Origin: Craspedostauros australis
Lineage: Eukaryota; Bacillariophyta; Bacillariophyceae; Mastogloiales; Achnanthaceae
Reading direction: 5' to 3'
Length of the DNA: 64,000 bases
Assembly: GCA_026770025.1 (NCBI GenBank)
Contig: JAMXDE010000087.1
Coordinates: 1-64,000, forward strand
Shown piece after piece: positions 1,132-34,625 of this stretch (position 1 is the first letter of the stretch; each line of letters opens with the position of its first letter). The translations under genes were made by a program, and so were the position numbers. The notes below the pieces were generated by a model, which was given only the letters and a program-made list of their open reading frames with translations, did no database searches and was not told where the DNA came from.

Positions 1132-1279
1132 CATTCCAACTACAGGAGGATGGCACAAGTCCCATGAAATGGCTGACTTGTGGGGGAGGAGGGGGAAGTC
1201 AACACCATTCCAACTACAGGAGGATGGCACAAGTCCCATGAAATGGCTGACTTGTGGGGGAGGAGGGGGAACAACACCA
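1132..1279. repeat. 74-bp tandem duplication with internal inverted repeat
   Basis: The block starting cattccaactacaggagg at 1132 is repeated at 1206, a period of 74 bp. The copies are almost identical until the second diverges after gggggaa. Inside each copy, CACAAGTC and GACTTGTG form an 8-bp inverted repeat around catgaaatggct and could fold as a hairpin. Confidence 0.9.
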
Positions 1280-1562
1280 TCAACTGTGATACTCACACAT
1301 CCACGTGCTCACACACACATACATTCACCACACCACAACATACAAGATAACACAGGATATCACATGTGAATATGACACTGCACACCATGACATATAATAT
1401 CACACAAGAATATGGGATAAAACAAGCTCAGCAGTGTCAAAATGACAGTGCATGGATAAAGATCAATAGCTGTGATCACCAGTCTTCGATTGCGTTGAAA
1501 TGTCACTTTTTTGAAATAACACGGGGTTGCAATTAAGCTTACAGGTTACTGTAAACCCTAAA
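1280..1562. other. Spacer, no gene seen
   Basis: AT-rich sequence with repeated cacac motifs. It ends in taaaccctaaaaa directly at the point where homology to the family-A retrotransposon begins. No coding or RNA gene is visible. Confidence 0.5.
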
Positions 1563-3051: not shown

Positions 3052-3054
3052 GTC

Positions 3055-4494: not shown

Positions 4495-4564
4495 TCAGCC
4501 TGCTGCTCTTGAATGATGTTCGTCTTCCTCGCACGATACGATTCGCGGGCTCGCCCTGATCTAT

Positions 4565-4576
4565 CGTTTATAAACG
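4565..4576. promoter_or_regulatory. Palindrome CGTTTATAAACG next to 5' LTR (A1)
   Basis: A perfect 12-base self-complementary sequence directly abuts the inner end of the 5' LTR, where a tRNA primer-binding site would lie. The same sequence is found at the same place in A2 and A3. Related palindromes occur in E and, in imperfect form, in F. Confidence 0.7.
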
Positions 4577-5373
4577 TGTTGGCAAGTTCCGCTCACGGTA
4601 ACCTACGATCGTGGAAGATGGTGTTGGTTGATAGTCGTCTGTTTGCTATTTCATTACGTTGGCACTCCGATACTCTCGGTGTCCGTTTGTTCTCTTGCCC
4701 GATGCTCTTGGCGCTTCAATCTGTTTCGTAGATTCGGTCTCCGACTATGAGTCGGTACGCGAGATCCTCTCTCGCTCCTCTCTGTATTCTCTCTCTCTCT
4801 CTCTCTCTCTCAACATCGTGTGTTCGTGCTACACGATACTCCGTGTTCGATGCGTGTTCCGCATTCGACACTCCGTTCATTCAGTACTGGCTTCTACTCC
4901 ATGAGTACTTACCATTTGAAGTTCACCTTCAGTATCCATGATCTTCATAGGTCATTGTATCTTCGCCTCCTGCTCTGACTTGGAGACAGCTGTCGACGTG
5001 GTGACATGTTGACATCCTGTCGACGTCAGTAGGCGTCCTTCTGCTCTCCAGATGTCACGTTCCATTGGTGATGCAGTAGTCTGTCAGATGATATTGTCAT
5101 CTGAGGTTTAGTTGGGAAGTACCTCGAGATTCTCTTGGTACCATTGATGCATGGACGGATGATCTTCTGATTCTCTCAGAAATCGTTATTTGCAAATTTC
5201 CTCCAGAAATCTTGCCCCTTTTTGTGTGTTCCATTTCCCCTGTAATTCTGACGAATCACAGTATACTATCGACACGAGTATAGTTATACCGTCCAAGTGC
5301 GTATGAGAGAATAGCGGGTGAACGATGCACATATACGCGTACATCTTGACATATACTCACATGTACATCTCGA
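4577..5373 (-). repeat. 5' LTR of family-A copy A1
   Basis: About 797 bp, homologous to the LTRs of A2 and A3. In the plus orientation it starts TGTTGGCAAG. The distal end stops at ctcga, lacking the last bases (ca) found in A2. There is no partner 3' LTR, so no target-site duplication can be assigned. It contains an expanded CT microsatellite at about 4788-4811 that is much shorter in A2. Confidence 0.9.
4788..4811. repeat. (CT)n microsatellite inside LTR
   Basis: A run of about twelve CT units. The same LTR position in A2 has only about five, so it is a length-variable simple repeat. Confidence 0.9.
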
Positions 5374-5396
5374 AAATTGCACAGAGAGTGAGTGAT

Positions 5397-5956
5397 TGTC
5401 GAAATGTGTGTGTTCAATGCTTCGCTCCAATCACCGTGACACTGATGTGTGTGTCGGTGACGACCAAACGAGAAAATGTGAGACTGTGAACTCGTGACTC
5501 GGAACTCGTGACTCAAGGAGGAAAACAACAAAAGGTGACCAAGACGACCATGTGACGTGGTATGAAGAAGATTCCGATCCTGACGTGGAATCTTCGTGTC
5601 AAGAGAAGAACAATGACTTAGTACTGAAGTCTACAGAAGAATGAAACTTTTAATGTTGATGCGAATCTCAGAAGAAATCAATGAAGAAACAACACGGAAA
5701 TGTGCGATGAACAGACCGAAACAACACGCAACATCATGGAGGAATTGTCGAGTGAAAGAGCAATTCGAGATGGTTGTGAACCGCACCAAATGCAGGAAAG
5801 ATGTGTGCCATCCGCAATATGGCGTGATGACAACAATGCAAAGAAGAGGTGCTAATCTGTTTGTCTCATAACACCTGTCGTCCTACAACCAATAACAACT
5901 AACAAACAACAGAACAGCAAGACTTCAGTCCATCTCCGTGCGCGGAGTTTCTAACA
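5397..5956 (+). mobile_element. Solo LTR, TGTCGAAATG...TTTCTAACA
   Basis: A 560-bp segment with TG...CA termini is flanked by a perfect 6-bp direct repeat, AGTGAT (5391-5396 and 5957-5962). Its start (TGTCGAAATG) and end (cgtgcgcggagtttctaaca) resemble the LTR of element F (tgtcggaatg ... cgtgcgcggagccttccaaca). No internal region is present. It is best explained as a solo LTR left by LTR-LTR recombination of an F-like Copia element. The 76-codon open frame inside it has no recognisable protein content. Confidence 0.8.
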
Positions 5957-5962
5957 AGTGAT

Positions 5963-6667
5963 GCATACAAACATGCACACAAAACCCCAACAAACAAGTA
6001 CATAGAAGGCTCTCATTCAAAGCTACACACTGAGGAATTGGTAAGGTGCATCACGGAGACGTTGACAACAACAAGTCAGAACGAAACGAGCAAGTTCCAG
6101 TGTGCAACGCACAGCATACACAACTTTGATGCATACAAGAGCGTTGGGTGAACGCAACTAGAATGTGACGAACCCTGTAAGATCGAGCACCTTGATAGTG
6201 GCGGTAAGCAGTCGTGTATTCTAATGCAGTGCAGATAATAATGCTGTGTTTGCGATCATGATGCGCAGCAGGGCATTCCCAAAAAAGATGACTCGTGCAC
6301 GCGACGAGCCAGCCTGTAGTATGCGCACGAAGCTCGTATTTGCTCACATGATCGCTGCGAACAGAAAGGAGACAAAATGAACGAAGATCTGATACTGGGA
6401 TGGAGGTATCTCATTGAGCAACTCAGGGACACCCGGCAAGTCCATTGAAACGGGCGTTGTTTGACTCATTTGACCACAGAGATTAATCGAGGCTGTTTAA
6501 TCGAATTAGTCTTGCCTCAACAATCTGTGTCGTTGCATTCGCTCAAATGACCGGTAGATGTCGTATCGTTAAGTATTATATTTAACGAGATCGTCTACTG
6601 GTGTCCAATGACCGCCGTTGTAACTGTAGTTGTTTAAGTCACGAATCAATCTGATGCACAACTGAAA
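5963..6667. other. Spacer, no gene seen
   Basis: No coding potential, RNA gene or repeat family was recognised in this 0.7-kb stretch. A 98-codon open frame on the minus strand lacks any familiar motif. Confidence 0.5.
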
Positions 6668-15185: not shown

Positions 15186-15199
15186 TGCGACTGTTAATC
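15186..15199 (-). promoter_or_regulatory. Primer-binding site of D (tRNA-Asn anticodon arm)
   Basis: In element sense, the bases directly after the 5' LTR are GATTAACAGTCGCA. The reverse complement, TGCGACTGTTAATC, matches the anticodon stem and loop of tRNA-Asn(GUU). As I recall it, the yeast tRNA contains this string. This implies priming by a half-tRNA cut in the anticodon arm, as known for Drosophila copia with initiator tRNA-Met. The TRIM at 33959 has the same 14 bases. Confidence 0.7.
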
Positions 15200-15256: not shown

Positions 15257-15872
15257 TAATAGAGCTAAACTAGCAGTTAGGCTAAGGAAGGATTTCCTGG
15301 AACACATGACTCGTTTTCCCACGAATCGGTCTGAACCACGTTTTGGACATAACCACGTTTGGAGCAGGCACAAGTCTTCGAAGAACCTCTTTGGAGTCCA
15401 GGACCCATGGAAAAAGGGTCCCAATGACTGGGTCATCGGAACCCCTCCCCACCAACAACTTGATGCCAATACAAGACTGCTGGATCCACGGTACAGTTCC
15501 ACGTGGGAATACACGCAAGATGACCTTCGCCCAGCTTCCAACTTGATGGAGGGAAACTTTCCCCTGGTACTGGAGCTACGCAAACCCTACACCCCTTTTC
15601 TGACAGCAACCCAACAAAAGGGCCCCCTCCTGTGGTACTTGGGCTACGCAAACCCTACGACCCTTTTCCAGGGCAACCCACACAGGGTGTCACACGAACA
15701 AGAATAATTGCACTAATCTCATAATCCGCACGTTTCTTCACCATCTACCAGTATTCTAAATTGACTACTTGTGGAACAGAAGACTCTCGTCCGGATCTCT
15801 TGCCAGTCAAGCCTCTGCCTACAGCTAAAGAACAGCCAACAAGACAACAGCCATTACGTTTGGGCTCTATTA
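15257..15872 (+). repeat. 5' LTR of Copia element B1
   Basis: A 616-bp LTR with terminal inverted bases TAATAGAGC...GCTCTATTA, so a TA...TA terminus instead of TG...CA. It differs from the 3' copy (29797-30412) at about a dozen positions, around 98% identity. B1 is flanked by the 5-bp duplication CAAGT (15252-15256 and 30413-30417), which splits the D LTR. Confidence 0.95.
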
Positions 15873-15882
15873 GATTAACAGT
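15873..15882 (+). promoter_or_regulatory. Primer-binding site of B1
   Basis: GATTAACAGT directly follows the 5' LTR. It is identical to the first ten bases of the PBS of D and TRIM and complementary to the tRNA-Asn anticodon loop. The next bases, ggca, differ from the cgca of D by one substitution. Confidence 0.6.
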
Positions 15883-15917
15883 GGCAAAAGATTGTCAAGC
15901 TCTTAGACCTCTGCAAG

Positions 15918-18900
15918 ATGACTCGTACCAACCGCATCGTTCCCTCCACCAGGGGACCCTCCAAGAGGAGCCCAGGTGATTTGACCGATGCCTTCGAGAC
16001 CGACCCCAAGGACCCGAAGGACCCCAGCCTCTCTGTCCTCCTCAATGACACGGCAGGCGCCCTGATGGATGGACCTTCGTCACTCTTCCCCACTGAGATG
16101 GGAAAGAAGTTCATCGAAGCAACCTTCGGACACCCCATCATCGTCGACGCGTGGAACCGAAAGGAGAAGACCCACGACGACGAAGTGGTGTGCCATGTCC
16201 ACAAGACCACCTGGGACGCATTCACCGACCTCAAGCAGTACTTTGGGATTAGCATCGAGACTGCCACGGTTTTTGGCCTCTTTAAAACCAGCGCACTCGC
16301 GATCGAGAAGACACTCCCCGAACTACTGACCACCATCCACGAAGGGACCCCAACCATGGTCCCTGGAGCCATCATGATCAACTTCACGGACCCGGACGAC
16401 GTCGCAAGACACTTCGAGACAGGACTCCTCGTCTACCACATCGCCGAGTGGGTAGGATTTATCAAAGTCAACAGAGACTCATCCCTCGACCAAACTCTCA
16501 ATAGGATGTTCATCGACGCAGAAAGCACCGAGAAAACGATGATGGCCTTCGACCGATTCGAAAGACGCGGCAGGCGCACGCACAATGGTGAGTGGCTAAC
16601 TGCTGTCGTGGAGTACAAGACATTTCTCTCTAACCCCAATGCCACCAGCACCTCGACCAGATCTGAAACCTCAATCCTCAAGACAGGACGAGACAGCGAC
16701 AGCCGCCCAGGAGGTACCCCCTTTGGGTTCTCATCCCTAGCCGGTGGAGCCGCCCCGGAGTGCACCTCGGGCACCCTCCCTGACGAAACCCAACTCTCTG
16801 GTATTGCTGAGCGTGGATCCATGACGACATCCCCAACAGCAACCGATGCCTACAGCGACAACCCAAATGCTGCAGGTACCAGCCCCAGCAACGACAACGA
16901 CCAGCACCCGGACACCAACGAAACTACCGGACCAGCCACCAAATGTGGACCCGATGGAAGGATCAGAATGTCCCCCAACGTTTGCCCCACGACTATTGAC
17001 GGTCACGGTCGCAGACCACCTGAAGCCAAGGCAGTAACCTTCGCCCATGGGACGACTACCAGAGATCCAGGAGACACTGCCACATCTCGGATGACCCACC
17101 AGGAGAAAGGTGGGAACCGTCCAGCGAGCAACCGAAGCTCATGGGACCATCATGGTACCATGGGCAACCCACCACCTCACGGTATGGCCAGCTACCATAA
17201 CCACGACGGACGCGAACCAACAATCCGAAACCCAACCGCCAACACAGGAGCGAACCATGGAACAGATCATCTGCATCACCAAGACCCTGGACCCAATGGT
17301 AACCATGGTCACACCAACGACGGACCCCATGGATACCCACCCCGCATGGATACCTTCCACGCACATAGGAGCCCACGCCCAGCATACCCACATCCACATC
17401 CAGGAGGATTCCCATCCATCGGAATCCCTGTCCACATGGGATACCCCCCAAACGGAAATGTAGGCTACCCGACTGCCCTGAGAGCTTTCATGCCTGTTGG
17501 AATTCCCCAACCTGGGTACCCCCCAAGACCACCAGGACACGGGAACCAAGCGACAGGTCATGGCGCGAACCGAATGGGACCAGACCCACACGTCTTAGGT
17601 CCTGACACCCACCATGGGCACCACGCATTTGGGGACGCACCCCATCAGGGAGGCACCCATGGTGATACCCCAACTCCTCCCGCCAAGCTGACGAAGCGGC
17701 GCCCCAACCCGAACGCCACGAGCACCAGTCCCAATGACGACCACAACCTGCACAGCATCACCAGCAAAGCTACTGGATCAACCAACGAGCGCGGACCCGA
17801 CGAAAGGAGCGGACTGTTCCTCGACGTGAACCCCGCTACTATTGGCGGACATGATCGCAGGCCACCCGACGCCAAGGTGGCAACCTTCACCCCCAAGACA
17901 ACCACCAGGGACCCAGGAGATCCTGCCGGACCCCGAGTGACCCACTCAGAGAGCAGTGGGAACCGCCCCGCGGACAACCGGAACTCATGGAACCATCATG
18001 GTACCATGGGCTACCTGCCACCCCATGGGATGGCCAGTAACCATGGCAACGGCAGACGCGAACCGACGAACCAAAACCCAACTGCGAACGCAGGCATGAA
18101 CCATGGAACGGGACAAATACACTGCCATTTTCTCAATCCCTATGGCATCTACAGATATGACAACACAGTGTGCCATGGATACCCACCTAACATGGGGCCT
18201 CCTCACGCATATGGCCAACCACATACGGCGTATGCGCAACCCCACCCAGAAGGATTCCCGCCTATTGGAGTCCCTGTTCGCATGGGATACGTGCCAAATG
18301 GAAGTGAAGACAACCAAACAGCACCAGGTGCCTTCGCACCTATTGGAAACCTCCAATCAGGGTACCCTCCAAGACTAACTGGATACGGACACCAGGCAAC
18401 CGACCATGGAACCCACCATGGAGGGCCAGGGCCAGGACCGCACATTGAGGCACCCAGTACTCGCTGTGGGCAACATGTACCTGGGTACTCTCGCCATCAG
18501 GAAGCCAACCATGGTGAAACCCCGTCTGTGTCAGCCAAGCTGGCGAAACAGCGACCCACCCTGGACTCCATCAAGTTCACGGGCGATGCGGTTTCCCTCC
18601 AAGTGGTGAACCACCAAACCCGGACAAGCGGAACTGTCCTCGACACGGTCTCCACGGAACATTGGGCATCATTCCCCACATCAGGAACAGGAAGACAGTA
18701 TCGAATGCCTGATGAAAACATGATCATCAACCTGGAGATGAGGGATGCATTGATGACATTCTACGTGATTCCTATCATGAAAGATGACGAGGACCTCCCT
18801 CCGCATGACATCACCTCGAAACAGGAATGGAACCCACCAGACCACCAGGGTGGGCTTGAATGCAACGTCCCCATGAGTTGCTATCTCACCAAGAATCCGA

Positions 18901-21614
18901 ACGGAGGCAACAAGACCTTCGATTGGAGTGGTTTCCATGATGACCAATACGACCTTTCGCCAGCAACCCCAGAGGAGAATGGTCTGGCCCCGACGCATGA
19001 CGATGCCGGAACCCCACCGCATGCAGCACCCACCATCGAAGAGGAACCTCCCGCGACAGGGGAGCTCATGATGACAGCCGGCTCCATCGAACCAATGGCA
19101 CACAAGCCCCATGAGGAGGACGACTCCAATCCAGGGCCATCGCACCTTCTTTGTTCGTCGGGACCACCATCCTACCAACAAATGGATGACGGCCCCGAAG
19201 AAAGGGGAGGGAATGGGAGGAACAGGCAAGAGAAGCGACCCCCCTTTACCATCAACGCCAGAAAGGACATCCCTTGGAGGATCAATTCCCACAGGACGAA
19301 CCAATCTAAAATCAAGACCATCTGCAAACGACAGGACGCTGTGGAGAACCCCACGCATGGATCGAACCTGGGCGCTGCTAGGAGTGCCACGAAGTCAAAA
19401 ACCGGGCTACGACATACACTGATGGACCTCGCACTACCCATTGATGGACCAGCAATCATGATGAGAGACAACAAGGCAATGTTACTGAACACCACGGCCC
19501 CTCCATTGCCCTTGAAGAAGAAACACTGCTCCTTGGCATTCCACCAGGTCCGAGAGTGCATCGCCGCAGGTATCATCGTACTCTGGTGCATTACTTCAAT
19601 CAACAACACCGCTGACATGCACACCAAACCACTCTCCAAAACCCCCTTCCGTCACATCGCATCGAAGACGGTCCTCAGGAACTTAATATACGAACCAGGG
19701 CCCTACCATGAAATCGTATCCCCCGCGAAACCGCGCGCCAAGGTCACCAGAGCGGAAGACGACCCCGACCTGCCAACCGATCGACCAGAGGAGCAATCAT
19801 GCCACAGCAAGAGACGCACCGATACAAGAAACATCAATGTCATCCGGTACCAACAAACACGCATGGACATCAGCACATCGTCAACTACCCTCTGGCTCGC
19901 GAGAACTCGACGGGAGCCGACCCCTCTAGAGAGGTCCCGGAGAAGGCCACCCAGACCTGTCACACCGATCGCAATCACGTTGGCCGAATCCAACCGACGG
20001 GCCCCACCGAGTTTTGTTGTCGCATGCGACATGCCCGATATCCTTGCCACGACTAACAATTACGAGCCGAGTAATGGACCACGTGACAATTTTCGTCACC
20101 AACCCGTCGACGCATCACCAACGGATCCCGCAACAGAATCCAGCCCACTGCCAGACACCAATTATTCATTGACATCGGGAAGTTTGACGCCTCGGATTTT
20201 CATCACGCCGGAACACGTTGCCAGCTCTCAGGTACTGTACCCTACAAGGAAGAAGGGAACCTTCCGTGGAATTGTCACAGGCTACAGTGGTCACAGGGCC
20301 TGTATCACCTGTACCAAGGGCAACAGGAAGGTCCATGCTGACACCATGTCCTATGCAGACAGCCAATCCGTATTTCCGCTTTCCCTCTATGAATATCTCG
20401 ATGAAGACCTCAAGGATACCGAGGCCCCCAGCATCGCGATCGCTGATGGACAGTATTTCTACCCAGCTGACGATGGCGCATGGGCAGAGAAACCCAGCAT
20501 GGACAGATCCACGAATCTGAGATCATCGACCTGCCACTTCTTCAGTTTGAGGAAGAACTGCATTCCTGTCATCCTCGCACGAGCGAAGCAGACACAAAGT
20601 ATCCAGAACCAGAGCGACCCCATCGCAGTGAACTTGGAACGGACACAGGCAGCACTCAAACAGGATCCTAGTCTACCCATCACCGAGGATGAGATAGTCA
20701 ACGGCATCCCTGAAATCGATGACCGACAACCCTGCCTCAAGGAAGGAGAGACAGTCAATGGGAAATTCCTATCAGAGGTTCCAGAAGGGTACATCGATCA
20801 GGAACCCGCAGCAACCAGCGCAGCCAAGCCAAGGGAAACCACTGACACAGAAGCTGCAATTGCACAAGGAATTGTCACCAGCTCACTGCCCATCCCCAGG
20901 CCATCAGTCCAACGCTCCCAACACACGTCGCCACCACCCAAGATCTTGGCCGGTACTCATGATAGGGGAGTCTACATTGACAAGTATAGACCACTCCAGA
21001 AGGCCCCAGATCCTTCCAACAAGAAGGACATGCCAGAGTCAGAATCTCTGGGCATCGAGGAGTCGACACCCATCTACCGACCAGACAAGATCAACCCAAA
21101 CCAGGCGCATACCCAAACCACCCATGCCAGCAACCACATCGACGACTGTGGCGACTCCCCAGATGAAAGAGAGACCCTTGATGAATCAGTGGGAACACCA
21201 TTACCACCCAGGAGCCCAGAGATCATGGTGAGGATCTTCGATGCTCCCAATCAGCCCAGGAAGATCGTGACGAGCCCATCTCTACGCCCAGCAACCAGAC
21301 CAAGGCTGGGAGAGGAGCATTTGGATATGCACCCAATGCCATTGACCCCGCAAGACGGGTCGGTGACCGGAAGATCGTTCTCCATGACGGAACCAGGTGC
21401 CAAGGAGGCCACCAACCCAAGGAAGAGGACCAGAATGGACCTTCCCATGCCAGAGCCATCCCCATCCCCAAGGCGACTCCAATCCTGCAACGTCATGCCA
21501 AGGGCACGAACGACAGCCATGAACTACATGCCCAACCATCTGTCCATCCTTGACCCTACCAACAAGATCAGAGCAGTCCCCCGCACTGATCCCAGATCGG
21601 ACCAAGCCACCCAA
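15918..21614 (+). pseudogene. Element B1 polyprotein, deleted for IN and most RT, 5' part
   Basis: This frame is open to the A2 insertion and resumes in phase at 29543. The first ~230 residues look like a non-canonical Gag. A duplicated His/Gly/Pro/Asn-rich region follows (genomic 16865-18555). A segment resembling the region after the protease in D comes next (compare RQYRMPDEN with RQTIIVPDG). The sequence GPPSYQQMDDGPEERGG aligns with B3. The frame then jumps straight to a partial RNase H (KTICKRQ, DNKAMLL, NNTADMHTKPLSK). Protease DSG, integrase, RT with YVDD and the first RNase H acidic residues are absent. Despite these deletions there is no stop codon in about 1,900 codons. It is a non-autonomous, coding derivative of the B family. 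Confidence 0.85.
16865..18555 (+). repeat. ~845-bp tandem duplication inside B1 ORF
   Basis: Two in-frame copies (about 16865-17705 and 17706-18555) share the ordered motifs RRPPEAK/RRPPDAK, TTTRDPGD, WDHHGTMG/WNHHGTMG, PHGMAS, NPTAN and GYPPR. They also share a closing AKLTKRRP/AKLAKQRP. The copies have diverged to perhaps half identity at protein level. The segment is low-complexity and rich in His, Gly, Pro and Asn. Confidence 0.85.
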
Positions 21615-22401
21615 TGTTGGCAAGTTCCGCTCACGGTAACCTACGATCGTGGAAGATGGTGTTGGTTGATAGTCGTCTGTTTGCTATTTCATTACATTGG
21701 CACTCCGATACTCTCGGTGTCCGTTCGTTCTCTTGCCCGATGCTCTCGGCGCTTCAATCTGTTTCGTAGATTCGGTCTCCGACTATGAGTCGGTACGCGA
21801 GATCCTCTCTCGCTCCTCTCTGTATTCTCTCTCTCTCAACATCGTGTGTTCGTGCTACACGATACTCCGTGTTCGATGCGTGCTCCGCATTCGACACTCC
21901 GTTCATTCAGTACTGGCTTCTACTCCATGAGTACTTACCATTTGAAGTTCACCTTCAGTACCCATGATCTTCATGGGTCATCGTATCTTCGCCTCCTGCT
22001 CTGACTTGGAGACAGCTGTCAACGTGGTGACATGCTGACATCCTGTTGACGTCAGTAGGCGTCCTTCTGCTCTCCAGATGTCACGTTCCATTGGTGATGC
22101 AGTAGTCTGTCAGATGATATCGTCATCTGAGGTTTAGTTGGGAAGTACCTCGAGATTCTCTTGGTACCATTGATGCATGGACGGACGATCTTCTGATTCT
22201 CTCAGAAATCGTTATTTGCAAATTTCCTCCAGAAATCTTGCCCCTTTTCGTGTGTTCCATTTCCCCTGTAATTCTGACGAATCACAGTATACTATCGACA
22301 CGAGTATAGTTATACCGTCCAAGTGCGTATGAGAGAATAGCGGGTGAACGATGCACATATACACGTACATCTTGACATATACTCACATGTACATCTCGAC
22401 A
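21615..22401 (-). repeat. 3' LTR of family-A element A2
   Basis: A 787-bp LTR. In element sense it runs TGTCGAGATG...CTTGCCAACA. The polypurine tract CACAGGAAGGG lies directly before it in element sense. It is nearly identical to the 5' copy at 28750-29536. The element is flanked by the 6-bp duplication ACCCAA (21609-21614 and 29537-29542). Removing one copy and the element restores the B1 frame. Confidence 0.96.
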
Positions 22402-22421
22402 CCCTTCCTGTGTGCATTCGG

Positions 22422-25400
22422 TCATTCGAATGTTCTCGATGTGTCAAGGTACGACTTCTCGTGTTCACGTTGCAAGTTGGCCTTGATGTTCTTGGTGAAT
22501 CCGTCGCTTGTGTTCTGCTCGGATTTGACGAAAATGATTTCGATGGTTTTGTTGATTACCATGTTCCTCACATAGTGATGGCGCACGTCGATGTGCCGCG
22601 ATCGTTGGGATGTTGATGGGTTCTTGGCGATGAAGATCGCTCCGATATTGTCCACTCGGACCTTGATCGGTGTCTTCACTGGGACGCCCACACTTTCGAG
22701 TAGCTGCATGACGAAGAAGATTTCCTTTGCCGCTTCGGAAAGGGCAACGTATGCTGCTTCGGATGAGCTGAGTGTGACGGCCTTCTGTGCCTTGGATCGC
22801 CAAAGGATTGGTACCTTGCACAGGTATAGGATGAACCCTCCTACGCTGATTCTCGTGTTCTTGTCTCCTGCATATTCGCTATCGCAGAAGAGCTCCATGT
22901 CCCAGCCGTCGTCGTCTGGACGCGCTGGATGGATCTTCAATCCATAGTCCTTTGTATCGATCACATACTTGATGATTCGATACATCTCCTTCATTGCAGC
23001 CTTGGTGGGCCCGATCAATACCTTGGAGAGTTCCCTCACAGGGTTCGCGATATCTGGTCGCGAGTGCTTGATGAGGAAGAGTAGCATACCGACGCCTCGG
23101 CGATATTCGGCATGTTCTTCCGGTCCGACCTTTTGCAGTCCGTTATCTTCGGATGGTCGTACGATGATTTGACCCGGGGTTCCCGGTGTCACATAGCGCT
23201 GCATCTTCTCAACCTTGGTTCCGAAATCTTTGATGAGATGTCGGATGAGGTGTGGTTGACGCAATGTCGCTCTAGTCTTGTCATGGTTCAGTTCGATGTT
23301 GCAGCTGAGGTAGTCTCCGAGTCCGCGCTCGATTGTCACCTTGAATTTGCTGCCTTGGATGTCCTTCAGGAATGTCTCCAGTGCCTTGGAGTCTCCGCAA
23401 CAGAAGCAATCGTCCACGTAGATGGCCACGATTATGCTTCCTTCGTTCGTCTTCCTGTAGAACAGGCACGGGTCTGCTGCGCTCTGTTCGAAGTTGATAT
23501 TCTTGAGGGTCGATACCAACATCTTGAACCATTGCCTGGCGCTCTGCACAAGTCCGTAGATTGGCTTGTGTAGGGTCAGGGCTTCGTCTGCTTGATGATC
23601 CATCCCGTTGGGACAGTTCATATAGATCTCCTCGTCGAGGTCTCCATGTAGGAATGCCGTTACGACATCGACGAGTGCGCAGTCCATCTTCTTGATTAGC
23701 ATGATCACCATCATGACCCGATAGGTCACGTCATGGATGACGGGTGAGTAATGCTCTTGGAAGTCTACTCCTGCGACTTGTGAATACCCACATGCAACGA
23801 GCCGCGCTCGATGTGTGCCGTCACGCTTCAGCTTGAAGACCCATTTGCACTTGCAGCATCTGCGGCCGCGTGGGATGGCGTCTCGTTTGATCTTGCTGTA
23901 CACCTTGCGTGTATCCATAGAGTCGAACTCCTTCTTGATGGCTGCTCGATATCCCTTTCGATGGATAGGATCTGGGTGATTGAAGGCTCCGTCGAACGTT
24001 GTGGGTTCGATGTGCTTCTCTGGTTCCTTGTTCTCGTCCTGCATCGACAGTCCGATGTCGATCGCTGGTGATTCGGTAATGATTGCATTCATTCCGTATA
24101 GTCCTGTTGTGCTATGATGAATAATCTCGATCTCTTCATCTTCGTCTTCAATTTCTTCATCATCTGTAGTTTCGTTGTTGGAGTCGTCGATCATCTCGTC
24201 GCTGAGTTCGTCACTCACCTCGTTGGATGATGGATCGCTCTCATAGCCTTCTTCCTTTCGACCTCGTTCGTTGAAGTCTGCGAGCTCGCGCAGAGCTCTG
24301 GGAATACTCTTCCCTGCAGTTGACTTGGGATTAGCTTCTCCCTTCCTGCCTCGTGCTTTGTGACGTCGGATTCTCTCCTTTCTAGCTATGTCACGCTTGT
24401 TTGGTTTGCTTGGTGGAGATCTGGATGGTGTGTCATGTGTAGACCTCGCTGGTGTATTTGGAGGGGTGACACCTGTCTCATCATCGGCTTCGTCGCCGGA
24501 GGGTAGGATTTCGTCATCCTCATGATTGGATTCGCTCCGATCTTCCTCGTCATTCTGGATTAGTTGGGTCACTACTCCGTCGTCCTCATCATCCTCATCA
24601 TCGCTGTCTGATAGGATGTAGTATCTGTTGCTGTCAGCGAAAGATACTCTCTTCGCTTCTGATGTTTGACGCGTTGCCGTTCTTGGCGTTGCTCCCTTCC
24701 GTCCGATGGTTGTGAAGCCGTCTGCGTCTGTCGTTCCTGTTTCATTGGATATGTTCGGTGCTGGTGCCCAGCCACGGAACTGTCCGTACGATTGGTTGAG
24801 CCACTTGATGTCCCATGAACAGATGAGTGACTTGGTCGATGGTCTGTACATGTTGTAGACTCCTGATGCATGTTGGTGTGCATATCCGATGAACACCATC
24901 TCTTCTCCTCTGTTCTTGAGTTTGGCGGTGATCCCGCCGTAGGTGGTCTTCACAACACCTACTTCTCCAAATGTGCGGAGTGCATCCGCATATGGTGGAT
25001 CGTTGCCGAAGAATTGTCGATGTGGTGACTCCTTCTGGTTCTTTGCTACGGTGATGTTGGCGATGGCGGTGGCAGTGCTAGCAGCCGCTGCCCACAGGCC
25101 ATGCCTATACTCTTTGTCGAGCTGTGCTCCGTTGAGCATGGAGCGGATCTTGGTGTAGAGGTATGCGAACTTGCGTTCCACTCTGCCGTTTTGTTGCGGC
25201 GTGTTCGATGCCGTGTATTCGAATTTCACGTTGAGGCCTGCATCGATGAGAATATCCTCCGTGGATTTGTTCTCTCCGCTGTTGTCACCTCGGAAGATGA
25301 TCTGTTGGTCACCAGTCTGTGACTTGATCGTTTGAACGAATCGTTTGATGTACCCTGGTTGATCACTCTTGTTCTTGAGAAAGAAACTCCAGCAGTGATC

Positions 25401-28400
25401 CGTGCAGTTGTCCACGATCAGGGTCCAGTAGCGTTTATCTCCGAAGCTTATGTGTTTAGTGTAACTAATGTCAATGAAGAGCCGTTCGCCACGGCGAGTT
25501 GCTCTTGGAATGGTTCCCTTCGGAATATTCTTCACTCTTGCGTTCGCGACCGCGCAGTCGCGACATACCGGCATCTCGCCGATAATCTTCCATCCATATT
25601 GAGCGGCTGTTCGCTTCATGGTTTCGAGTGGCGCGTGGCCGAGCATTCGGTGCAGGTTCACCGCGCTGATTTCCTTGGATGGATTCTTGACGATGGCTGT
25701 GCAAGCCTTGTCGTCGTCTGTCGGCATGATGGGATGCATCTGCACTCCCGTGATGAATCCGTTGGATGTAGGGAAGACTCGATCGAACACGATCTTCGTT
25801 CCGGATCCGTTGATGATGTCCATTAGAATGCCGTTGTTACCAAGCTGGTAACCATTGTACAGAGCCTTGTTTGTGGAGAAAAGGTTCACCGCCATCTTGG
25901 GTGTGTACTTCACATCATCGAGCCGGATGATGTGGCCAGTGTTGTCTCGCTGTTTGACTTTCAAGCGAATGGATCCCATCTTGGGAGAATCCAGCTTCGT
26001 GCTGTCTCCCACTTGGACGAAGGACTTGATGTGCCGCACGTTGAAGAGAGCGGCGTCCGAGTTGACAATGTGACACGAAGCTCCGCTATCGGCGAGCCAG
26101 GTGTCCTTGTTGACCTTGTCCTTGTACTTGGTGCTCAGCTCGTGGAGTTGCTCCACAGCTGCCGCAGCTATCTCGTCGTCGAAGCAGCCGTCGTCGTCGT
26201 CTTCGTGAACTCCATCTTCGTTGTATGGATGATGATGATCTCCGTCATCCATGTCATCGGGTAGTTGCGCGTAGTCCGATGGAATTGTACTGTTCCGATG
26301 AGATCCTGTGGCTGGATCGTATGGGTGGACGCGTGATCGCTCTCGCAAGAGCACGCGCATGCATCCTCCAAGGATGTAATGCAGATCCGTCTCTGGGATC
26401 GTTTCCCAATCGTTCCCTTCCAGTATGCGGTTGATGATGATTGCATTGGCGAGGATCTCTTCGATTGATTCGAAGTGCTCGGATAGGATGGATCCCATCA
26501 TGTTCATCCATATTGGCATGAGTGCTCCTCGTGTGGTTCCTGGGAACACTCGCATCCCCGCTTCCATCACGGCGTCAAAGATGAGCTGCTTTTGGATTAT
26601 CAATGCTGTTGCTGTTGCATTCGGGATGGTGCTGTGACGGAGGAGGTAGTCGACGCTGTTGGGATCCTCAATATCCGGGAAGTCGATATTCGCTGGATAG
26701 ATGACACGCTCGTTTGGATTAAAGCTGTCGTCTGGATGATTGCCGTCCTCGGATTCGTCGCTGTCATCCTCGTCGAAGATGCCCGATCTGTTGTTCCCCG
26801 CCGCTGGAGGAGGAGGCGCCGCGGCGCGGCGCGTTTCGCCTTGATTGATGAAGGTTCCCGTTCTCTCGTATCTCCCAGCTTGAGGAGGAGGCAACTCGTC
26901 GCGGTTCGCCTCGTCGTCTTCATCTGCGCCGTCCTCGTCGGCGTCGTCGTCATCGTCATCGCTCATGGCCTCTTCGATGTCGCTATCGTTGGCCTCGTCC
27001 ATCTCAGCTTCGTCGCCGTATGAACCGATCAGGTCGTGCGCGTTGAAGCAGCATTCGTAGCTCACTTCGCGTCTTGGATCCACCTCGTGGATGATTGGCT
27101 CCTCGCTGAGCCACTCCGGTACGATCTCATCGTCCTGCACTTCGTTGTCACTTCCGACACACTCGAAGTTATCGAAGAAGGAGTCTTTGATGTAGTCGTC
27201 GGACACCAACATGCAGAGCGGCATGTCCTTCGCAGAGAGTACCATCTCGTGTCCGCTCTTGTCGTGTCCTTGCGTTGCTGTGTTGGCCTGTTCGTCGGCC
27301 TTCTTCTTCTCGTTGAACTTCTTCTTTCGGCACTCCGCCTCGCGGTGTCCGAAGATGCCGCAATAGTTGCACTTGCCCTTGAAGCCGCTTCCCTTGTTGC
27401 GCTTTCCGTTCATTTTGTTGTTGTTGTTGTTATTTTTCTTGTTGTTTGACTTCTTGCGTTCTGGGCAATCGGCGGATCTATGGCCATACACGCCACAGTT
27501 GTGACAAGTACCCTTGAAGTTACCGGTGCTTGTGAAACCGGTGTCGTTGCTCTTTGTGTTGCTGTCTTGGAAGTCGTCGACGTATGCTTTGCCCCCTCTG
27601 TGCGTGGCGTATGCAGTACGGAGTACTCCTCTGATCGTGTTGATGGTGACCAGTTCCGGATTGAACGTGAGTTGGTGTTGGAAGTTCACGATGTGAGTTC
27701 TGTACTCGTTGCTCACCGTGCTGAGGATTTGCATGATCATTTCCTCGTCCGAGATCTCGTATTTGACATCGTGGAGACGCGATCGTAGACTCTCGAGTTG
27801 CGTGATGTAAATGTCGGGGTCCGTGTCTCTCTTCATCTTTTCGTTGTTGAATTGGCGCTTGAGTTTGATCTTCGTCACTGCGTCGGATGGTCGGAACTTC
27901 TCCGCGAGAACGTTCCACGCTCCGTGTGCGTCTCCTTCGGGGTAGTCGTCGGAGATGCATTGGTTGATGTACTGGATGGCCTGCTTGCCTTTTCCTTTCT
28001 CTGCATCCATCATGAGGATTAGATCGCTGAAGCAGTCGCATCCTAGCTCGTAGATCTCCTCCATCGCTTCCTTGTCTTCATCGGCGGCTGCCGCGATCTC
28101 ACTCACTGTTGGCACCTTGGTCTTGCCCAACATCACGTCTCTCGTCTTCTGTGCACGAGCGTATGCCTTCGCTTGGGACTCCCATGCGCTGTAGTCTTCC
28201 TGTTCACCACTGAACATCGGCGCCTTGATGCGTCGCTTGTTCATGTTGGCTGATGTCGCCATGTTGGTTCGTTGTTTCGTCGTTGGTGCGCTCGCGCCCT
28301 TGATTTCCGTCTGTTTCTGTGTTGCCGATTCTTCGAATTTCACCTGTTGTTGCGCGGAGATTGTTTTCGTCACAAATTCTCCTCCTGGTGGTGTCTCACT

Positions 28401-28667
28401 TTTACCACCCTGTTTGGCTGTGCGAATGCTCTTCGTCACACCAGTCTCCTCTTGCTTGATCGCCTCGAGAATCCTCTTCTCCTTACGATGTAGTCTTGCA
28501 GACCGTTCTTCTTCGGTCTTGTCGATTGCGCTTGCGTCTGCGCCTGATAGGACAGTAGCCGCGGCTGCTTCCTTCTCTTGTCGTGGTGGAGTCTCACTCG
28601 CACCTTCTTCTTTCTTGATACCCGGATTGGACAGAGGGATCTCTTTCAATTCCTCTTCCTCGCTCAT
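22422..28667 (-). CDS. Family-A Copia Gag-Pol polyprotein (A2)
   Basis: A 2,081-residue single-frame Gag-Pol with no stops. UBN2-like capsid is at about 150-360. CCHC knuckles are at 388-401 and 433-446. An acidic spacer spans about 500-645, and a fast-diverging unknown module spans about 655-770. Protease DSGA is at 860-863. The integrase finger has His1006, His1011, Cys1035 and Cys1038. The integrase core has Asp1066, Asp1128 and Glu1164. RT YVDD is at 1750-1753. RNase H has Asp1929, Asp2006 and Asp2055. The RNase H glutamate in the SSSEAEY motif is Ala in this copy (residue 1972, GCA at 22752-22754), whereas A3 has Glu. This should impair RNase H, so A2 may be unable to complete reverse transcription by itself. 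Its start MSEEEE is conserved in A1 and A3. Confidence 0.95.
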   Translation of the reverse strand: MSEEEELKEIPLSNPGIKKEEGASETPPRQEKEAAAATVLSGADASAIDKTEEERSARLHRKEKRILEAIKQEETGVTKSIRTAKQGGKSETPPGGEFVTKTISAQQQVKFEESATQKQTEIKGASAPTTKQRTNMATSANMNKRRIKAPMFSGEQEDYSAWESQAKAYARAQKTRDVMLGKTKVPTVSEIAAAADEDKEAMEEIYELGCDCFSDLILMMDAEKGKGKQAIQYINQCISDDYPEGDAHGAWNVLAEKFRPSDAVTKIKLKRQFNNEKMKRDTDPDIYITQLESLRSRLHDVKYEISDEEMIMQILSTVSNEYRTHIVNFQHQLTFNPELVTINTIRGVLRTAYATHRGGKAYVDDFQDSNTKSNDTGFTSTGNFKGTCHNCGVYGHRSADCPERKKSNNKKNNNNNNKMNGKRNKGSGFKGKCNYCGIFGHREAECRKKKFNEKKKADEQANTATQGHDKSGHEMVLSAKDMPLCMLVSDDYIKDSFFDNFECVGSDNEVQDDEIVPEWLSEEPIIHEVDPRREVSYECCFNAHDLIGSYGDEAEMDEANDSDIEEAMSDDDDDDADEDGADEDDEANRDELPPPQAGRYERTGTFINQGETRRAAAPPPPAAGNNRSGIFDEDDSDESEDGNHPDDSFNPNERVIYPANIDFPDIEDPNSVDYLLRHSTIPNATATALIIQKQLIFDAVMEAGMRVFPGTTRGALMPIWMNMMGSILSEHFESIEEILANAIIINRILEGNDWETIPETDLHYILGGCMRVLLRERSRVHPYDPATGSHRNSTIPSDYAQLPDDMDDGDHHHPYNEDGVHEDDDDGCFDDEIAAAAVEQLHELSTKYKDKVNKDTWLADSGASCHIVNSDAALFNVRHIKSFVQVGDSTKLDSPKMGSIRLKVKQRDNTGHIIRLDDVKYTPKMAVNLFSTNKALYNGYQLGNNGILMDIINGSGTKIVFDRVFPTSNGFITGVQMHPIMPTDDDKACTAIVKNPSKEISAVNLHRMLGHAPLETMKRTAAQYGWKIIGEMPVCRDCAVANARVKNIPKGTIPRATRRGERLFIDISYTKHISFGDKRYWTLIVDNCTDHCWSFFLKNKSDQPGYIKRFVQTIKSQTGDQQIIFRGDNSGENKSTEDILIDAGLNVKFEYTASNTPQQNGRVERKFAYLYTKIRSMLNGAQLDKEYRHGLWAAAASTATAIANITVAKNQKESPHRQFFGNDPPYADALRTFGEVGVVKTTYGGITAKLKNRGEEMVFIGYAHQHASGVYNMYRPSTKSLICSWDIKWLNQSYGQFRGWAPAPNISNETGTTDADGFTTIGRKGATPRTATRQTSEAKRVSFADSNRYYILSDSDDEDDEDDGVVTQLIQNDEEDRSESNHEDDEILPSGDEADDETGVTPPNTPARSTHDTPSRSPPSKPNKRDIARKERIRRHKARGRKGEANPKSTAGKSIPRALRELADFNERGRKEEGYESDPSSNEVSDELSDEMIDDSNNETTDDEEIEDEDEEIEIIHHSTTGLYGMNAIITESPAIDIGLSMQDENKEPEKHIEPTTFDGAFNHPDPIHRKGYRAAIKKEFDSMDTRKVYSKIKRDAIPRGRRCCKCKWVFKLKRDGTHRARLVACGYSQVAGVDFQEHYSPVIHDVTYRVMMVIMLIKKMDCALVDVVTAFLHGDLDEEIYMNCPNGMDHQADEALTLHKPIYGLVQSARQWFKMLVSTLKNINFEQSAADPCLFYRKTNEGSIIVAIYVDDCFCCGDSKALETFLKDIQGSKFKVTIERGLGDYLSCNIELNHDKTRATLRQPHLIRHLIKDFGTKVEKMQRYVTPGTPGQIIVRPSEDNGLQKVGPEEHAEYRRGVGMLLFLIKHSRPDIANPVRELSKVLIGPTKAAMKEMYRIIKYVIDTKDYGLKIHPARPDDDGWDMELFCDSEYAGDKNTRISVGGFILYLCKVPILWRSKAQKAVTLSSSEAAYVALSEAAKEIFFVMQLLESVGVPVKTPIKVRVDNIGAIFIAKNPSTSQRSRHIDVRHHYVRNMVINKTIEIIFVKSEQNTSDGFTKNIKANLQREHEKSYLDTSRTFE

Positions 28668-28737
28668 TCAGCCTGCTGCTCTTGAATGATGTTCGTCTTC
28701 CTCGCACGATACGATTCGCGGGCTCGCCCTGATCTAT

Positions 28738-28749
28738 CGTTTATAAACG
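28738..28749. promoter_or_regulatory. Palindrome CGTTTATAAACG next to 5' LTR (A2)
   Basis: Perfect self-complementary 12-mer between the 5' LTR and the leader, identical to A1 and A3. See the finding on palindromes in place of a primer-binding site. Confidence 0.7.
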
Positions 28750-29536
28750 TGTTGGCAAGTTCCGCTCACGGTAACCTACGATCGTGGAAGATGGTGTTGG
28801 TTGATAGTCGTCTGTTTGCTATTTCATTACATTGGCACTCCGATACTCTCGGTGTCCGTTTGTTCTCTTGCCCGATGCTCTTGGCGCTTCAATCTGTTTC
28901 GTAGATTCGGTCTCCGACTATGAGTCGGTACGCGAGATCCTCTCTCGCTCCTCTCTGTATTCTCTCTCTCTCAACATCGTGTGTTCGTGCTACACGATAC
29001 TCCGTGTTCGATGCGTGCTCCGCATTCGACACTCCGTTCATTCAGTACTGGCTTCTACTCCATGAGTACTTACCATTTGAAGTTCACCTTCAGTACCCAT
29101 GATCTTCATGGGTCATCGTATCTTCGCCTCCTGCTCTGACTTGGAGACAGCTGTCAACGTGGTGACATGCTGACATCCTGTTGACGTCAGTAGGCGTCCT
29201 TCTGCTCTCCAGATGTCACGTTCCATTGGTGATGCAGTAGTCTGTCAGATGATATCGTCATCTGAGGTTTAGTTGGGAAGTACCTCGAGATTCTCTTGGT
29301 ACCATTGATGCATGGACGGATGATCTTCTGATTCTCTCAGAAATCGTTATTTGCAAATTTCCTCCAGAAATCTTGCCCCTTTTCGTGTGTTCCATTTCCC
29401 CTGTAATTCTGACGAATCACAGTATACTATCGACACGAGTATAGTTATACCGTCCAAGTGCGTATGAGAGAATAGCGGGTGAACGATGCACATATACACG
29501 TACATCTTGACATATACTCACATGTACATCTCGACA
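28750..29536 (-). repeat. 5' LTR of family-A element A2
   Basis: A 787-bp copy of the A LTR, nearly identical to 21615-22401. It joins the 6-bp target duplication ACCCAA at 29537. Confidence 0.96.
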
Positions 29537-29542
29537 ACCCAA

Positions 29543-30247
29543 GACATTACCGCCACCCCCCACCGTGGAGGAATGACCCACATCAATGAGATCCAACAGA
29601 CCACCATCACCACAAGGTTCAACGAGGAACTGGAACGATTGGCGGACGAAGACAGCCAAGATCCCATGTGTGAAGACATCGACGAACTTGATGCATGGAA
29701 TGCACATGCCGCTATCTTGGGCTGCACCACGGTCAACGCTACGACTAGCTTTCTTGCTTCCAGTCAACTCACGTTGCGACGTGAGATGAAGGGGAGTAAT
29801 AGAGCTAAACTAGCAGTTAGGCTAAGGAAGGATTTCCTGGAACACATGACTCGTTTTCCCACGAATCGGTCTGAACCACGTTTTGGACATAACCACGTTT
29901 GGAGCAGGCACAAGTCTTCGAAGAAACTCTTTGGAGTCCAGGACCCATGGGAAAAGGGTCCCAATGACTGGGTCACCGGAACCCCTCCCCACCGAAAACT
30001 TGATGCCGATACAAGACTACTGGATCCACGGTACGGTTCCACTTGGGAGTACACGCGAGATGACCTTCGCCCAGCTTCCAACTTGATGGAGGGAAACTTT
30101 CCCCTGGTACTGGAGCTACGCAAACCCTACACCCCTTTTCTGACAGCAACCCAACAAAAGGGCCCCCTCCTGTGGTACTTGGGCTACGCAAACCCTACGA
30201 CCCTTTTCCAGGGCAACCCACACAGGGTGTCACACGAACAAGAATAA
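29543..30247 (+). pseudogene. Element B1 polyprotein, 3' part
   Basis: The continuation of the B1 frame after the A2 insertion, starting DITATPHRGG. When A2 and one copy of ACCCAA are removed, it is in phase with the frame ending at 21614. The segment HINEIQQTTITTRFNEELERL corresponds to HINQVQQVSITSSLNKALE near the B3 C-terminus. The B3 stop is missing here, so the frame passes the polypurine tract and runs about 450 nt into the 3' LTR, ending NPHRVSHEQE. That tail is probably incidental read-through. Confidence 0.8.
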
Positions 30248-30412
30248 TTGCACTAATCTCATAATCCGCACGTTTCTTCACCATCTACCAGTATTCTAAA
30301 TTGACTACTTGTGGAACAGAAGACTCTCGTCCGGATCGCTTGCCAGTCAAGCCTCTGCCTACAGCTAAAGAACAGCCAACAAGACAACAGCCATTACGTT
30401 TGGGCTCTATTA
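29797..30412 (+). repeat. 3' LTR of element B1
   Basis: A 616-bp partner of 15257-15872, preceded by the polypurine tract GATGAAGGGGAG. It ends GGGCTCTATTA, then the duplicated target CAAGT. Confidence 0.95.
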
Positions 30413-32154: not shown

Positions 32155-33958
32155 GTGACATCGCACCTTCTGCAAACTCAATCAATCATGGAGCCCACAA
32201 TTTCATCGCACTCACAAAAATCATCATACTTGCATGATCACCGCACCCATACTACCATGGTTCCATCTCCAAAACACACAACCAAGCCACCACTGCACCC
32301 TCGATCTTCCAGTCCCCACAAGGAAGCAACAGCGACACCCGAATCGCATCCCGCTTCCAATCCTCCACAATTCCAAGCAGAGAGGGTGCTTGCATATGAC
32401 ATTGATCACTCATACGTTGTATTTGTCCACAAGTCTCTCATGTCTCCAATGAACAACGACAACAATGATTGAACAGTACATCTGCCATCAATGCCCACCT
32501 ACTGTGATTTCTTGGAGAGTGGTCCACCCAACAGCCCCACCAATCCATGGGGTAGTGTCAACAGGGATGTGTGGTCTTCCTACAACAGCTCATCAAATCT
32601 ACCCCAGCAGACTCCTCCATCTGACCACACCAATTCCATGAGCCAACAATGCACAGCGCTTTCCTCCAGGTCGAGCAACAGGAGCATCAAATGCAACTGC
32701 TCAACATGGGTCAAGCCAACTATTTGCCACATGGATTGATCAGCAATGGCAAGGCACTTTGCCTCAGCCAGGAGAGATCTTTCATTCAGTGCCGGTCCAG
32801 CTCTGTTTGGATCAATCATCAGCAAGCAGCCCACCCAAGTTTGCCAGCCCATCTCTGTTGCAATCAACCATTGATAGAAGCACAGATGACAATCATCTGC
32901 TGCATCTGCTCCCCAAGGGGCTGCATCTGCATCTCAACATCATCCAGGGAACCACATACAACATCAACATGAGACAAAGCCAGCACTTCAGTATGTGCCA
33001 CTACCTGTGAGTGCACACAACTGCACGTCCAGCCCATCCACAATGTGGAAATGAACATTGACACTATCCTGGAAATCTTCTTTCCAGTTTCACTACTGGA
33101 GAAGACCCAATTCCACACCAACAGCCATCTTTGCAACACCAAATTGATGGCAACTGCCATCACTGTCCCTGAGCTGTACATCTTCTTTGCCATGTAGTAC
33201 TAAATGGGATTCTTCTGAGCTCCAGAAAAATTGACTACTGGAGAGCTGCCTTGATCTCTTTCCCAACTCATGTACTGATGACATACATGTCCAGAGCAAG
33301 ATATGAAATGGTATGGAAGCCTATGCACTTCACTGCATTGCCAACCTTGGACAAAGTGTCTGAATTGTTGGTGGAGACTGCAGCTGAACCACTAGAAGCT
33401 GAGGATGACATGAGCCCCCATGGACTTTGTTTCAGCTTGGGAACTGAATGTATCAGGAGTGTCAGAAGGGTTCTCACCATAAGGTGAGGAGCATCATGCT
33501 GGTAGCCCCCACAGTCCAAGCAGGGAGGCAAGAGCATCCACACGATCACAGCAGAAACAATCCGCCAAGTATCATCTAGTGCTCCAGACCGATCGGTTGT
33601 GGTATGGCAAGGTTCAGCCCCTTCTCAACCACACCAACAGTGTGTCGAAGCGGCTGTGTCTGAAACCTGGCTATGCTTGCGCCATAGATGAGATGATGGT
33701 TCAATTCAAGGGAAGATCTGCACAGATGCATCGCATGCAGCAGAAGCCAATCAAGGAAGGCTACAAATTCTATTCCCTTTGTTGCTCAGCCTCGGGGTTC
33801 ATGTTCCATGTGCTGCCATCGGGGCGCCTGGACAAAACCACACAGGATCAACAACACCGTCACAGAGCTGCTTGCCAAACTCAATCCTGCTGACAAGCAT
33901 GTTGTTGCCATGGACAATCTATGCACTACAAAGATTGTCATTGAGAAGTTGAGGGAGA
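32155..33958 (+). pseudogene. piggyBac-type transposase, N-terminal and catalytic part
   Basis: Broken frames on the plus strand encode an N-terminal Pro/Ser-rich tail. Next comes NVEMNIDTILEIFFPVS and PELYIFFAM (33050-33200). The catalytic stretch follows, with DEMMVQFKGRSAQMHRMQQK and KPIKEGYKFYSLC at about 33688-33790, then AMDNLCTTKIVIEKLREI at about 33909-33958. The Asp of DEMM and the Asp of AMDNL fit the first two Asp of the piggyBac DDD triad (DDE_Tnp_1_7 family). Several stops and frameshifts lie between 33195 and 33575 and again at 33830-33850, so the gene is dead. The sequence is cut after LREI by the TRIM insertion. Confidence 0.85.
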
Positions 33959-34050
33959 TATCAGCACAAAATCGAATAGTGCTAAGTACGTTACTCCCGT
34001 AGCCCCCACTATCTATAAATTTCACTTGTGTTCGGATCAGCAATCGCATC

Positions 34051-34118
34051 GCCTGTAGCTCAACGGTAGAGCACCAGTAATTCTAACTGAGGTTCCGGGT
34101 TCGAATCCCGGCATGGTA
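34051..34118 (+). ncRNA. tRNA-like Pol III unit in left TRIM LTR
   Basis: The D-arm GCTC...GAGC, A box TAGCTCAACGG (34056-34066), T-arm CCGGG/CCCGG and B box GTTCGAATC (34099-34107) are intact. It is unlikely to be a working tRNA. The acceptor stem pairs at only about four of seven positions. The anticodon loop AATTCTA lacks the universal T33, and the anticodon stem has a C-A mismatch. A T5 run at 34144-34148 could terminate a Pol III transcript of roughly 100 nt lying wholly inside the LTR. Confidence 0.7.
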
Positions 34119-34164
34119 CTTTGCTTTTGCTCACCCCTTGTGATTTTTCGATAGTGCTCTAATA

Positions 34165-34178
34165 GATTAACAGTCGCA
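34165..34178 (+). promoter_or_regulatory. Primer-binding site of TRIM
   Basis: GATTAACAGTCGCA directly follows the left LTR. It is identical over 14 bases to the PBS of element D and over its first ten bases to that of B1. It is complementary to the anticodon arm of tRNA-Asn. Confidence 0.7.
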
Positions 34179-34506
34179 GCTAGTTCTACATCGCTGAGTT
34201 AGGACAACCTTGCACAACACGCCTTCGTGGGCGCGTTGCGATCACCGGATTTCGACCCAGTCTCACACTTGTCTGCTACGGCAGCACTCCTACTTCGTCT
34301 GGCAGTATTCGCCACCCAGCAATGAGGGTGCCCCGAGATGGGGAGGCGCGGGAGATGACAACTTTCCGTCATAGTGCTCTTGAGCAGGTGGTCCACGGTC
34401 GTAGCGTAGGGGAGTATCAGCACAAAATCGAATAGTGCTAAGTACGTTACTCCCGTAGCCCCCACTATCTATAAATTTCACTTGTGTTCGGATCAGCAAT
34501 CGCATC

Positions 34507-34574
34507 GCCTGTAGCTCAACGGTAGAGCACCAGTAATTCTAACTGAGGTTCCGGGTTCGAATCCCGGCATGGTA
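34507..34574 (+). ncRNA. tRNA-like Pol III unit in right TRIM LTR
   Basis: Sequence identical to 34051-34118, offset by 456 bp. Its A box is at 34512-34522, its B box at 34555-34563 and its T5 run at 34600-34604. The same defects argue against a functional tRNA. Confidence 0.7.
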
Positions 34575-34625
34575 CTTTGCTTTTGCTCACCCCTTGTGAT
34601 TTTTCGATAGTGCTCTAATAGGAGA

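Follow-up and report, generated by a model that had tools for sequence, protein, structure and literature searches.

A TRIM family with tRNA-like LTRs in the diatom Craspedostauros australis, and its chimera with a Copia element

Within a stretch of 64,000 nucleotides from the diatom Craspedostauros australis (contig JAMXDE010000087.1, positions 1 to 64,000; hereafter, the window), a short non-coding element with two LTRs interrupts a transposase frame, and both of its LTRs contain a tRNA-like sequence. What kind of element is this, which polymerase would transcribe it, and whose machinery would move it? We think it quite likely that it is a TRIM with a tRNA-derived promoter, whose RNA would be made by RNA polymerase III (Pol III), mobilised by a Copia family, and primed by tRNA-Asn; the Pol III step is inferred from promoter-like sequences.

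Anatomy of the element

The complete TRIM spans positions 33959–34620 of the window (662 bp). The left LTR (33959..34164, plus strand, as are all features below unless noted) starts with TATCAG and ends with CTAATA, and comparison with the right LTR (34415..34620) shows identity across all 206 bp. The 250-bp interior (34165..34414) begins with the PBS GATTAACAGTCGCA (34165..34178), which can pair with the anticodon arm of tRNA-Asn(GTT), and ends with the PPT AGGGGAG (34408..34414). On either side is the target-site duplication GGAGA (33954..33958, paired with 34621..34625; no strand assigned). A sequence-only reading of the window had described this same arrangement, from the two identical LTRs through the interior, PBS, and PPT to the duplication, and every part of it was borne out. 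Among stop-to-stop frames of at least 80 amino acids, three overlap the interior, with lengths of 82–89 amino acids.

The transposase frame is disrupted by the TRIM, and one of the three flanking frame pieces (33483..33890) matches DDE_Tnp_1_7 (PF13843, E = 9.7e-11). DDE_Tnp_1_7 is the piggyBac domain, and the earlier description of the host frame as piggyBac agrees with the match in that one piece.

With the Rfam tRNA model (RF00005), both LTRs score 35.4 bits, as compared to a gathering score of 29. The match covers model positions 6–65 of 71 and lies at 34054..34113 in the left LTR and at 34510..34569 in the right LTR. In the left LTR, the A box and D arm are TAGCTCAACGGTAGAGC (34056..34072), and the B box and T loop are GGTTCGAATCC (34098..34108). 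Both LTRs match the box consensus at TAGCT and CGG (A box) and at GGTTC (B box), so the sequence-only reading was right to place an A box, a B box, and a tRNA-like unit in each LTR. At the gathering level, Rfam reported only tRNA (4 matches) and no 5S match in the window and in the chimeric locus L026 (see below).

The other candidate signals are a TATA element, TATAAAT (34014..34020), and two T runs that could terminate Pol III. TATAAAT is at LTR position 56 and starts 42 bp upstream of the start of the A box (LTR position 98); the B box is at LTR position 140. The T5 run (34144..34148, LTR position 186) had been proposed as the stop. It is present, and it is preceded by a T4 run (34125..34128, LTR position 167), which is the first candidate terminator.

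A dispersed family and the conservation of its LTRs

We searched the whole assembly (74.8 Mb in 90 contigs) for relatives. We scored 40 matches from 115 first-look candidates for the whole element and 40 matches from 135 first-look candidates for the LTR, so the true copy numbers may be higher. A search with just the interior yielded 21 places, with every candidate scored. We read 37 loci besides the window element. With the window included, 20 loci have two LTRs, 17 are solo LTRs, and one (L028) has the interior and a single LTR. Every one of the 20 two-LTR loci and of the 17 solo LTRs is flanked by a perfect 5-bp duplication (L028 is outside this count). Among seven additional solo LTRs, six have the duplication and L147 does not; another solo LTR, L153, has GGGAG on both sides. 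Two of the solo LTRs, L043 and L044, match each other at 989 of 1009 positions, flanks included, and are probably one insertion that was later duplicated. A scan for the TRIM's motifs in collections of viral contigs and genome contigs found no match.

The LTRs are identical in 16 of the 20 two-LTR loci, and the other four pairs differ at 8, 6, 2, and 1 positions (ungapped counts). The plain reading is that these are young, retrotransposed copies. At L148, positions 232–438 are an old and diverged TRIM LTR, which is followed by a recognisable PBS and a partial interior. Judging from L148, the family has a longer history than one would assume from the identical LTR pairs.

Because the family is genome-wide, a chance origin of the arrangement in the window is excluded. 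Solo units are frequent (17 of the 37 loci that we fetched, and 40 scored of 135 first-look candidates in the LTR search), as would be expected if the 206-bp unit were a SINE or a tRNA gene cluster and its two-copy form an accident of this locus. But a tRNA-derived SINE would insert as a unit alone, with duplications of variable length and a 3' tail, and these units have fixed ends and 5-bp duplications. Since the ends and duplications of the 17 solo units match those of the two-LTR form, they are solo LTRs rather than SINEs or tRNA clusters. The two-copy arrangement recurs with PBS, PPT, and its own 5-bp duplication at 20 separate sites, which was the check proposed in the sequence-only reading, and the unit has no acceptor stem and is not reported as a tRNA by ARAGORN. 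We rejected the SINE or cluster reading, which is scarcely credible given these loci.

To see what is conserved, we aligned 46 LTRs, one per locus (both L043 and L044 are included). Pairing is nearly complete in the D arm (183/184 cells) and in the T arm (224/230), lower in the anticodon arm (182/230), and only 177/322 in the acceptor stem. As the arms are paired and the acceptor is not, it appears that the internal promoter was kept and the tRNA was lost. ARAGORN reported no tRNA in the window, nor in the LTR with its intron option on. We therefore rejected a functional tRNA gene, and the tRNA-like stretch looks like a candidate Pol III promoter instead. The closest candidate parent is tRNA-Arg(TCT), with 53 of 71 positions matching, which is the best of 33 genes compared (28 genes plus 5 tRNA-Asn; 63 of 1610 candidates were scored and several isotypes are absent from the set).

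Might the captured tRNA-like fragment no longer drive the genomic RNA, so that this is an ordinary TRIM transcribed by Pol II from its TATA promoter? We consider this unlikely, but it has several points in its favor. Each LTR holds TATAAAT, which could equally serve Pol II, and a full-length Pol III RNA would be blocked by T4 and T5 in the left LTR. Also, conservation of the boxes is modest. Across the 46 LTRs, mean divergence is 0.006 in the A box and 0.019 in the B-box arm, which is the same as in the neighbouring stretch 63–90 (0.019); the values for U3 and the LTR end are 0.030 and 0.065. We view these differences as suggestive only. In the diverged locus L028, 3 of the 18 positions of the B-box arm are changed, one of them within GGTTC. 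On the other hand, the pairing of the D and T arms has been maintained, T4 is invariant (mean divergence 0.000; 0 of 4 columns vary), and TATAAAT varies in 5 of 7 columns (mean divergence 0.019). The diverged and much older L148 also keeps T4, and it has 2 changes in the 7 positions of its TATA element versus 1 in the 18 of its B-box arm. These observations lead us to prefer the tRNA-like stretch as the promoter.

The probable primer tRNA and a chimera with Copia

Five identical tRNA-Asn(GTT) genes have in their anticodon arm the sequence TGCGACTGTTAATC, to which the 14-nt PBS is exactly complementary. This pattern is found at six places in the genome, of which five are these genes; the sixth is, by its sequence, no tRNA. 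We also considered a 25-nt match between the PBS and tRNA-Asn and rejected it, as the agreement spans 14 nt. We tallied terminators for the tRNA-Asn genes only: three of the five are followed by T4 alone and two by T5, so T4 plausibly terminates Pol III in the TRIM's LTR as well. As an aside, the tRNA genes of contigs C83 and C89 form two blocks with matching scores and spacings, and each of these contigs probably represents a copy of the same organelle genome.

The junction of LTR end and PBS, with up to 3 mismatches, occurs at 188 places (TRIM copies included), while a reversed control gave 0. One of the TRIM loci, L026 on contig C40, links this junction to a Copia family, and it is the most informative feature of this TRIM family. 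L026 is an insertion of 8456 bp with the duplication TCCAG, and its parts are, in order, a TRIM LTR, PBS, a Copia interior, PPT, a Copia LTR, PBS, the TRIM interior, and a TRIM LTR. The Copia interior has an open frame of 1849 amino acids that matches RVT_2 (E = 6.2e-23; L026 was the only locus searched for RVT_2). Its PPT ends with AGGGGAG and its LTR reads TATCAACATC...GATTATCA. The two TRIM LTRs are alike except at positions 204–205, where the left copy has a Copia-like ending (ATCA for AATA). A stretch of 20 nt from the LTR end and PBS is common to both joints and forms a direct repeat that flanks the Copia part.

The Copia LTR is repetitive in the genome, with at least 40 matches (the number scored, of 212 candidates). 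In three elements that bear this LTR, the 5' LTR is directly followed by GATTAACAGTCGCA, so the PBS is, as judged from these loci, common to the TRIM and a repetitive Copia family. When we compared the TRIM to two Copia stretches, we found no similarity beyond the LTR ends, PBS, and PPT core (best E = 1.9). The link between the partners thus rests on the LTR termini, the PBS, the PPT core, and one chimera, and it is plausible that this Copia family is the autonomous partner of the TRIM.

Of the 25 places that a pattern for the start of the TRIM's own LTR brought up, none proved to be an autonomous element. The 20 exact matches and C45 are known TRIM copies, L153 is the solo LTR mentioned above, and L152 has no likeness to the TRIM. 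L154 and L155, which are nearly identical to each other, belong to a different repeat that resembles the TRIM LTR for about ten bases; their sequence tttggggag|TATCAGCACAC may be the PPT and the beginning of the LTR of yet another LTR family. We considered two larger loci as autonomous forms of the TRIM and rejected both: L026 is the chimera with Copia, and the interior of L027 is split by an insert of about 5.4 kb (~846–6240), which we read as a nested DNA transposon. This insert has an open frame of 857 amino acids, inverted repeats of 31 nt (844–874 and 6212–6242, 87% complementary), and a tandem array of a GTGCT repeat.

How did the chimera form? Template switching between co-packaged RNAs would give the structure of L026. 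We entertain, with some doubt, a broader possibility: that L026 is the fossil of a single particle that held a Pol III RNA of the TRIM and a Pol II RNA of Copia, which were fused when strand transfer took place at the tRNA-Asn PBS that both have. If so, then Copia machinery would have copied a Pol III transcript that shares no sequence with it beyond the LTR ends, PBS, and PPT, and elements of the Helenus type (see below) would have either originated or survived in a lineage other than fungi, animals, and plants. Alternatively, and with close to an even chance, L026 might have formed without co-packaging, if Copia cDNA, either linear or as a one-LTR circle, had recombined through the 20-nt stretch with a TRIM already present in the genome. 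A single crossover with a one-LTR circle yields exactly the order of L026, and the 20-nt direct repeat is present on either side of the Copia part; however, a homology of 20 nt is short for recombination between DNAs. The left TRIM LTR has the ending ATCA, which would also be expected from a template switch where U5 meets the PBS, but this is not decisive. By either route, the TRIM and Copia share functional borders, judging from the joints.

Proposed mechanism, known relatives, and other elements

Returning to our preferred reading, a Pol III-made TRIM that is mobilised by Copia, we propose that Pol III recognizes the TATA element and the A and B boxes and would start at about position 80 of the left LTR. 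Because T4 and T5 lie in the left LTR, a full-length Pol III RNA needs read-through: Pol III would sometimes pass the left-LTR T4/T5 and stop at the T4/T5 of the right LTR, and the R region would then span the tRNA-like part. This may hold for the minority RNA that transposes, and the majority of transcripts may be short RNAs of ~90–110 nt that end in the left LTR. The sequence-only reading had proposed both a short RNA from each LTR and a full-length one; given T4 and T5, the latter is more difficult to account for. The full-length RNA would enter Copia particles, where tRNA-Asn would be cleaved in its anticodon arm, its 5' half would prime the first strand, and AGGGGAG would prime the second. 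Copia integrase would then insert the copy with a 5-bp stagger.

The plan of this element is already known. As described in the main text of Kojima 2024 (PMC10886601), Helenus elements are tRNA-bearing TRIMs from fungi, animals, and plants, and belong to the class TRIMp3. Fungal Helenus elements are primed from the anticodon loop, and one fungal lineage uses tRNA-Asn-GTT (PMC10886601). According to the same text, their partners were inferred mainly by the likeness of the PBS (the closest direct pair spans two Puccinia species), and Pol III transcription was left unproven for Helenus too. The sequence-only reading had suggested a new parallel to Cassandra, but Helenus already is that parallel.

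By its plan, the TRIM belongs with Helenus/TRIMp3 (as compared to the published description). It has two LTRs, a length in the TRIM range, and no mobilisation proteins (its interior has just the short frames mentioned above). Its LTRs have tRNA-derived sequence with box A (TRGCY, YGG) and box B (GGTTC), the sequence being degenerate as a tRNA, as in Helenus. The PBS and PPT are at the ends of the interior, and the dispersed copies have duplications within the 4–5 bp of the description. The PBS is on the anticodon region of a tRNA and is common to the host's candidate autonomous LTR family, which is Copia (RVT_2 was seen in L026), also the likely partner of Helenus.

What is new here is the diatom host, the match of the PBS to the host's own tRNA-Asn(GTT) together with the occurrence of this PBS in a repetitive Copia family, and the chimera with a candidate partner family in the same genome; the host and the chimera distinguish this TRIM from Helenus as described. 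The single rbcL of the assembly is 92–93% identical to those of the diatoms Pleurosigma, Paralia sulcata, and Sellaphora pupula, which are the closest matches with an organism name among the 120 listed of 7999; metagenome proteins that lack a name reach 94%, and the pelagophyte Pelagococcus has 86%. The words diatom, stramenopile, and oomycete are absent from the main text of PMC10886601, and we found no report of a tRNA-bearing TRIM from diatoms in the literature that we searched, with subscription papers and Repbase outside its scope.

Other known elements share some of these features. Ajax, a TRIM from nemerteans, is also in TRIMp3 and has 5-bp duplications, but its LTR is derived from 5S rather than tRNA (PMC10886601). 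In Drosophila copia and yeast Ty5, which are cited in the main text of that paper, the first strand is primed inside the anticodon region of a tRNA, but these are autonomous elements. Cassandra, a plant TRIM, has a small-RNA promoter in both LTRs and no coding capacity, as here; its promoter is from 5S rRNA, whereas the LTR here is tRNA-like. Copia of Drosophila and Ty5 also use another tRNA than the tRNA-Asn of this element. Dasheng and RIRE2 of rice are another case of a non-autonomous LTR element that is tied to a partner family, although Dasheng is large, Pol II-transcribed, and of the Gypsy type.

A single genome contains the TRIM, the family that may be its partner, genes for the primer tRNA, and the chimera, so the choice of partner and the minimal recognition signals (~14–20 bp) are directly testable. 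The promoter-like sequences suggest that TRIMs with Pol III promoters reach diatoms, and tRNA-like matches in such genomes should therefore be annotated with care.

The window also contains another LTR element, at 15257–30412. By eye, its LTRs are 616 bp (15257–15872 and 29797–30412); they are 97.9% identical over the 572 bp compared and have inverted ends TAATAGAGC/GCTCTATTA. It has an apparent duplication, CAAGT, and the PPT aggggag, and its PBS, GATTAACAGTGGCA, has one mismatch to the TRIM's PBS and is followed by a frame starting MTRTNRIVP. Inside it, 21615–21914 and 28750–29049 are direct repeats that are 7.1 kb apart and 99% alike over 300 bp, perhaps the LTRs of a nested element. On the minus strand, 15186–15199 is a copy of the tRNA-Asn PBS sequence, and an oppositely directed LTR element may adjoin this one.
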